A stretch of DNA of 39,837 nt, taken from NCBI GenBank assembly GCA_905233535.1, contig CAJOEO010000016.1, positions 1 through 39,837 on the forward strand, read 5' to 3'. Positions 707-3,947 of this stretch are shown here, one piece after another; within the stretch, counting starts at the first letter, position 1; each line of letters starts with the position of its first letter. The position numbers were made by a program, and so were the translations under genes. This DNA is from an uncultured Treponema sp. (GTDB taxonomy: Bacteria; Spirochaetota; Spirochaetia; Treponematales; Treponemataceae). Under the pieces are notes generated by a model. The model made no database searches and was not told the origin of the DNA. It worked only from the letters and a program-made list of their open reading frames with translations.

Positions 707-814
707 AAAATTTTAGATTCAAAAAACGCGCGACGGTTTCAAATCTCCCCTACCCGCGCATTTTCTGCAAAAAAACTTGTGGATTTTTTGTGATTTGTTC
801 GATAGAATGAATAA

Positions 815-922
815 AAAGACACAGCCACGGGAGCGTCCGCAAAACGCTCCCAAGATAACGCGGTTGGTCTTCATTTTTCTGAATACAAACCGCCAAGTTT
901 TTGCTTAGGCGGTTTCTTTTTT
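815..922 (+). ncRNA. candidate small RNA (possible type I antitoxin), convergent with the 22-aa peptide ORF
   Basis: TAGAAT -10-like box at 803-808; perfect 8-bp stem GGGAGCGT(829-836)/ACGCTCCC(844-851); intrinsic terminator AAACCGCC(887-894)/GGCGGTTT(908-915) then C+TTTTTT. Confidence 0.5.
887..922 (+). terminator. intrinsic terminator, hairpin usable on both strands
   Basis: AAACCGCC...GGCGGTTT stem followed by CTTTTTT. Confidence 0.75.
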
Positions 923-955
923 ACTTCTTACAAAAAAAATGCAAGAAGGGTGCAA

Positions 956-1024
956 TTACCAAACAGGATAGCCCGCCAAAAGTAAGCAGACAATCGCTAA
1001 AATCATAATGATTCGTGTAGCCAT
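956..1024 (-). CDS. 22-aa hydrophobic peptide MATRIIMILAIVCLLLAGYPVW, candidate type I toxin
   Basis: ATG at 1024, TAA at 956-958; GGAGGG Shine-Dalgarno 6 nt upstream (ctttGGAGGGcgtgcaATG); almost entirely hydrophobic; below the ORF-track length cut-off. Confidence 0.55.
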   Translation of the reverse strand: MATRIIMILAIVCLLLAGYPVW

Positions 1025-1084
1025 TGCACGCCCTCCAAAGATTGAATTCCGCTCATTTGAGCAGTGAAGTTTGAAGAGCAACCT

Positions 1085-3044: not shown

Positions 3045-3947
3045 TCAAAGAAAAATTAAGCCCGCGATTCCGAGGGGAATTAAATAGGCGGCAAACCATT
3101 CTAAGTGACCTTTTCGGATTATGCGCATAAAAATCGCAAGCGCAATGTAGCCAAAAACAAACGCACACACGCAACCTGCAATCATCGGCAAAAATCCAAT
3201 CGCGCCACTCATTTCGTCAAGGTGGCGAAGTTCAAGGACAAACGCGCCCAAAATTGCTGGAATAGAAGCGAGAAACGAATAGTCGCCCGCAACTTTTCGC
3301 GAAACGCCACAAAGTCGTGCGCCCGCAATAGTTGAGCCTGAACGCGAAACGCCAGGCAACGTTCCAAATCCTTGCGCAATTCCAATTATCAACGCTTGTT
3401 TCCAAGTAATTCCGCGGTCTTGAACTTGAAAAAGATTGTCCTGCATTTCCGCGGAATCTAAAATGTCGTGTTTTCTCGAAATAAACGAAGAAATTATAAG
3501 TAAACACGCGGTAACCAAAAATCCCGCCGACACGAATTTTAACGACAAATCGGGAATCAATTTTGAAGACGCGATTCCCAAAATTCCCGTAACGATTGTA
3601 GTCAAAATTATGTAAAGAATCGTTTTTCGTCCAACTTTGTCGGACGGCGCAAGTTCTAGCGTTTTTTCGTCGGGTGCGATTACAATGCTAACGTCGTAAG
3701 AATTTTCGATTTCGTTTTTGTGAAAAATCCAACGAAAAAGAACGACAAAAAGTCTTATGATTATTTTTCTAAAATAAAGAATCACCGCCGCCAACGTCGC
3801 AACGTGAAGTACAACATCAAAAAGAAGCGGAATGTCGTCTAGCGCGAAAAAATGTTGAACCAATCGCAAATGTCCGCTTGACGAAATCGGCAGGAATTCT
3901 GCAACCCCCTGTACAATCCCCAGCAAAGCCCCCTGCAATACCGTCAT
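3045..3947 (-). CDS. uppP: undecaprenyl-diphosphatase (BacA/UppP)
   Basis: MTVLQGALLGIVQGVAEFLPISSSGHLRLVQ and PGVSRSGSTIAGA motifs; multi-TM. Confidence 0.95.
   Translation of the reverse strand: MTVLQGALLGIVQGVAEFLPISSSGHLRLVQHFFALDDIPLLFDVVLHVATLAAVILYFRKIIIRLFVVLFRWIFHKNEIENSYDVSIVIAPDEKTLELAPSDKVGRKTILYIILTTIVTGILGIASSKLIPDLSLKFVSAGFLVTACLLIISSFISRKHDILDSAEMQDNLFQVQDRGITWKQALIIGIAQGFGTLPGVSRSGSTIAGARLCGVSRKVAGDYSFLASIPAILGAFVLELRHLDEMSGAIGFLPMIAGCVCAFVFGYIALAIFMRIIRKGHLEWFAAYLIPLGIAGLIFL

Follow-up and report, generated by a model that had tools for sequence, protein, structure and literature searches.

According to a 2025 paper that adds a cyanobacterial case of its own, the only phyla with known type I toxin-antitoxin (TA) systems had until then been Proteobacteria, Firmicutes and Tenericutes (PMC12390103). 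In the par locus of pAD1, the Shine-Dalgarno (SD) sequence of the toxin is sequestered by a leader stem-loop, and the convergent RNAs meet at a terminator (PMC7472228). The overlap of the TxpA/RatA and BsrG/SR4 RNAs is restricted to their 3' ends, and Sib covers the entire ibs ORF together with its ribosome-binding site (PMC4147584). The literature that we searched describes no type I system in Treponema or other Spirochaetota; a prediction present only in T1TAdb is not excluded.

The window analyzed here, a stretch of 39,837 nucleotides from an uncultured Treponema sp. (contig CAJOEO010000016.1), carries one copy of a locus repeated in rumen Treponema that, judged from its sequence, would work like par/Fst or TxpA/BsrG and is not a member of the Ibs/Sib or Fst families. 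A sequence-only reading had suggested a spirochaetal type I pair. This suggestion is supported by frame conservation, covariation, a near-universal facing RNA and swapped peptides, and a chromosomal type I TA locus of a new family is, in our judgment, the likely interpretation, with toxicity, neutralization and transcription being inferred. On sequence evidence, these loci very probably form a type I TA family that is new to spirochaetes. As in par/Fst (pAD1 RNA I/RNA II), a toxin mRNA and a short antisense RNA appear to converge on a terminator, and a leader stem-loop masks the toxin SD. The Treponema loci differ in lacking direct repeats of the DRa/DRb type, in place of which they have an inverted 5' element at which the two RNAs resemble each other rather than being complementary. 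The toxin has no Pfam or NCBIfam relation to the Fst family. A bidirectional terminator belongs to par; the one here is strong for the RNA and ranges from weak to fair for the toxin transcript. The predicted anatomy also resembles TxpA/RatA and BsrG/SR4 of Bacillus in the small hydrophobic toxin and in RNAs that overlap at their 3' ends only. The comparison with Ibs/Sib of E. coli, drawn originally, holds for a hydrophobic peptide of about 20 residues and for several copies per genome. It goes no further, because Sib overlaps the whole ibs ORF, whereas the terminator of the window RNA ends at 922, short of the ORF at 956–1024. Another type I candidate from beyond the classical phyla is msoT1/msoA1 (PMC12390103), which comes from the cyanobacterium Microcystis.

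The predicted toxin is a 22-residue hydrophobic peptide, MATRIIMILAIVCLLLAGYPVW, encoded on the minus strand at 956–1024 and opened by GGAGGG, six nucleotides and ATG, just as the sequence-only reading had described. Family members are 21–23 residues long, with hydropathies of about +1.8 to +2.6 and a C-terminal G-[YF]-x-x-W, which is GYPVW in the window peptide. The start codon shifts its position among loci (MATR..., MAK..., GTG starts), with the frame being kept. The window peptide matches no Pfam or NCBIfam family, and members of the toxin family are too short for homology to be recognized in databases. One 22-codon ORF alone is not significant, as the window contains many of that size, and a single locus would be compatible with a chance short ORF beside an ordinary small RNA. 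Among 25 distinct coding sequences (last 19 codons), however, in-frame pN/pS is 0.22 for close pairs and 0.42 when pooled, compared to 1.05 and 0.81 in the other frames of the same DNA, and reversed-pattern controls are near zero, which leaves the chance explanation hardly conceivable. By this measure the peptide frame is under purifying selection. A frame not conserved in relatives would have refuted the original proposal; the frame is conserved, with synonymous bias (pN/pS 0.22 versus about 1). A type I locus should encode a small hydrophobic peptide that has its own SD and is conserved as a coding frame, and these loci do so. In two loci of T. zioleckii (L087 and L102), the peptide ends in G[FY]PAF instead of GYPVW.

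Upstream of the start codon, an extended SD, GGAGGGCGTGC (1026–1036, minus strand), is nearly invariant in the family. Both peptide search patterns fix most of this sequence, while loci found through the RNA are free of that bias. The SD is hidden in a leader hairpin (1030–1079, minus strand), which in the window pairs GCTCTTCAAA (1070–1079) with TTTGGAGGGC (1030–1039). All six SD nucleotides are paired with an upstream arm in each of the 23 leaders folded, and opening the masked SD would cost 6–12.5 kcal/mol, mostly above the values for shuffled leaders. The RNAs of 38 loci fall into two subtypes, A and B. The arms shown above are those of subtype A, and GGTCTTTCTGGCT pairs with AGCTGGGAGGGC in subtype B; both arms thus change together. 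Since the fold buries the SD, the full-length transcript is predicted to be translated poorly, and processing or refolding is probably required.

The absence of a clear promoter for the peptide, remarked on in the first reading, is explained for this copy by dispersed repeats (1084–1210), which replace the conserved leader and promoter upstream of 1083 in this copy only. These repeats have seven matches in their own genome and are either inserted in the toxin leader or stand in its place. The peptide and the SD hairpin are still intact, but with the leader and promoter broken, expression of this copy may be weak. The three remaining copies in the genome retain a leader element of the GCACAGTC type and look complete. 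No canonical −35 element was found for the mRNA of the GYxxW-class toxin. In two further loci (L031 and L055) the peptide codons are kept and the leader and SD are replaced, as though the toxin had been silenced.

The plus strand facing the peptide contains a putative non-coding antitoxin RNA of about 110 nt (814–922). Its −10 element, TAGAAT (803–808), is where it was first placed. The −35 element proposed with it (TTGTGG at a 20-nt spacing) was poor and gives way to TGGATT (780–785) with a 17-nt spacer, a σ70-like promoter that is preferred because homologues show the same spacing (TTGAAT-17-TATAAT in L007 and TTGACG-17-TAGAAT in L005). The 5' hairpin P1 (816–871) pairs AAGAC-A-CAGCC (816–826) with GGTTG-GTCTT (862–871) and contains the nearly invariant 12-mer CGGTTGGTCTTC. 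Inside P1 lies the 8-bp hairpin P2 (829–851), noticed at the outset and found only in subtype A, to which the window RNA belongs. The intrinsic terminator (887–922) is likewise located as originally described. It had been considered symmetric and able to end both transcripts; this stands for the plus-strand RNA, where the U-tract is strong, and is weaker on the peptide strand. Across 38 loci, the U-tract has on average 7.3 T in nine positions on the RNA strand, compared to 4.1 in nine on the peptide strand, where the tract reads TTTGTATTC in the window copy; the peptide-side terminator is weakest in subtype B.

The window RNA folds with a minimum free energy of −40.4 kcal/mol (z = −5.3 against shuffles), and RNAs of the family fold better than shuffled sequences (z from −3.5 to −5.3). 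The covariance model R1 places it at 815–921 with an E-value of 9.7e-18, the window copy being one of the 20 training sequences. The covariation of the RNA hairpins that the first reading proposed as a check is borne out. Variants of the 5' arm of P1 (CAGCC, CAACC, CGACC and CAATC) all keep the pairing, and seven type-A loci with CAGCC have GGCTG in place of GGTTG on the opposite arm. Among 20 type-A homologues, three pairs of P2 show two-sided, compensatory changes. The terminator of subtype A adds two compensatory pairs, one of them seen in a single sequence only; an A-U to G-C change occurs there in 8 of 20 sequences. Overall, 95.8% of cells are paired in subtype A, and 26 cells carry double changes where shuffles average 9.5. 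None of 500 shuffles reached the covariation score of 0.215, and slid controls gave at most 0.09. Only the 5' hairpin was scored in subtype B, whose RNAs lack P2; it is 95.7% paired, against at most 57% when slid, and varies on one side only, so that the pairing is consistent without two-sided covariation. No Rfam family, Sib RNA included, matches the RNA. The second component of a type I system would be a cis-encoded antisense RNA that can pair with the toxin mRNA and whose gene has a promoter and a terminator to itself; at the sequence level it is present here.

The whole unit of about 300 bp occurs four times in this genome with 80–87% identity (a 301-bp query matches three further places), and one match of 71% identity to the same stretch was found in a same-genus genome. 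Patterns combined with the covariance model detected about 40 loci, often in tandem, in same-genus genomes. With the RNA pattern (CGGTTGGTCTTC, a gap, AGGCGG), 32 sites turned up in 8 of the 196 genus genomes, and the reversed-pattern control matched once; a looser peptide pattern gave 25 matches versus none, and a pattern joining the SD to the peptide end gave further loci with zero control matches. One genome has 11 copies, three of them within 1.2 kb. Loci in one genome are paralogues, and the counts are not independent. Carriers include T. zioleckii and goat or sheep rumen MAGs; the public records that bear a name belong to T. zioleckii kT3, with loci on its contigs C2, C9 and C19, and to two MAGs from ruminants. 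These defined loci, in T. zioleckii available in public genome records, could be used to study type I TA biology in spirochaetes. A 35-bp match (L006) was rejected as chance. Spread outside Treponema was likewise rejected, as 15 of 19 matches to the SD-peptide pattern among genome contigs were due to chance, with no such peptide and no RNA motif. Nor was carriage by phages upheld: 38 matches on viral contigs had no facing toxin, and the sister-class pattern described below gave none.

Peptide and RNA are not lost equally. Among 24 distinct loci found through the peptide, 23 face the RNA and the remaining one is cut by a contig end. When loci were found through the RNA, 22 of 31 that could be judged face an intact peptide, and in the other nine it is decayed or absent. 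The asymmetry (Fisher p = 0.007) deserves only limited weight: the search patterns, which it partly reflects, differ, and the loci share relatedness. In two loci (L015 and L021) the same RNA faces a different hydrophobic peptide of 29 residues, MDLMLCIAVVSCLASVVSAIVAVLSYLKK. The conserved peptide, the SD hairpin and the antisense RNA, like all the sequence evidence, would also fit a small membrane peptide that is regulated through a dedicated antisense RNA without being toxic, for instance one acting on a transporter or in a stress response, and toxicity is untested. Such a peptide, however, gives no reason for the near-universal RNA, and tandem multi-copy arrays, swapped peptides and RNAs that outlive the decay of their peptide are typical of type I TA loci; we regard this alternative as unlikely. 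Read as a type I TA family, the Treponema loci are well supported; the toxin and the antitoxin RNA are both new, and toxins are interchangeable. The swapped peptide lies at 1500–1555 on the minus strand in L015 and at 1957–2005 on the plus strand in L021, with GAGGAGGTCTGCA as SD.

An unusual and unexplained feature is that both convergent RNAs start with a similar hairpin, whose arm is specific to the locus. Positions 3 and 6 of the arm are identical between the two RNAs in 20 of 20 loci, compared to about 55% across loci (relatedness of the loci was not removed). In the DNA this shared element forms an inverted repeat, at both locus ends, and is thus not the direct repeat of par. Inverted repeats with locus-specific identity and many dispersed copies are also what a MITE-like mobile element would show, its terminal repeats being transcribed by chance with the peptide as a passenger. 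But the inverted elements sit within the transcripts and vary so as to keep RNA pairing, and the peptide frame is under selection, making a mobile element a very improbable explanation (target-site duplications were not looked for). For a type I TA locus, the shared identity could stem from mimicry of the leader, from a factor that binds both RNAs or from conversion between the inverted copies, and this remains open. The GGUUGGUCUUC of the antitoxin is similar to the SD-masking arm of the toxin leader. We can offer only as a tentative idea, more doubtful than not, a new control logic in which the antitoxin RNA represents an inverted copy of the 5' leader of the toxin mRNA, acting besides 3' pairing as a leader mimic or as a competitor for a common RNA-binding factor, on a scaffold that accepts different toxins. 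Two direct forms of 5' contact were rejected. Domain-swapped pairing of the 5' hairpins yields about −1 kcal/mol, with cognate pairs hardly better than non-cognate ones. Beyond the 3' overlap, an accessibility-based duplex search between the antisense RNA and the toxin leader or SD yielded nothing but weak, non-conserved interactions (−1 to −5 kcal/mol).

The scheme that we propose infers transcription of both strands, RNA pairing, toxicity and membrane action from the arrangement of the locus. The plus strand would produce a short structured antisense RNA ending at the terminator (887–922), and the minus strand an mRNA for a single-helix hydrophobic peptide of 21–23 residues. The 3' ends of the two RNAs would overlap across the terminator, and pairing there may lead to double-strand cleavage, lock the fold, or both, keeping the peptide off. 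If the mRNA were left unpaired, the peptide could insert in the inner membrane and growth would stop.

The covariance model also detected weaker relatives in other Treponema genomes and in two other genera of the taxonomic family. Most relatives with a clear antisense RNA face hydrophobic peptides of 23–33 residues, and the promoters of these sister toxins are often clear and σ70-like (TTTACA-17-TATAAT, TTGACA-17-TACAAT). The sister-class pattern matches in 10 of 294 genomes, with no control match. These sister loci recall Hol-Tox, since their peptides score 15–21.9 bits on Pfam Hol_Tox, all below the curated cut-off of 23.3 and the best (E-value 1.6e-4) just under it; the window peptide, in contrast, has no Hol-Tox pattern and no Hol_Tox match, and ends in GYPVW. 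The link to the sister class is an inference only, as it is founded on an RNA architecture common to both and on a low score against Hol-Tox. Sister loci L088–L095, L099, L103 and L105–L120 have Hol-Tox-like or CIATVV...LSYLK peptides, and the RNAs facing sister peptides carry the motif GGTC[GA]TCTCCAC. Some order-wide matches of the covariance model near an E-value of 1e-3 (L096–L098) have no facing toxin and were not counted.

In the window, the upstream neighbor of the locus ends in an MnmG/GidA C-terminal domain. On the other side, a predicted lipoprotein (MKKSHLLLAFLALLGFFFVSC...) that contains numerous DVSGFNTSKVTDMSYMFY-type repeats is encoded on the plus strand at 1381–2856, and an undecaprenyl-diphosphatase of the BacA/UppP type (Pfam PF02673, E-value 2.7e-68) on the minus strand at 3045–3947.
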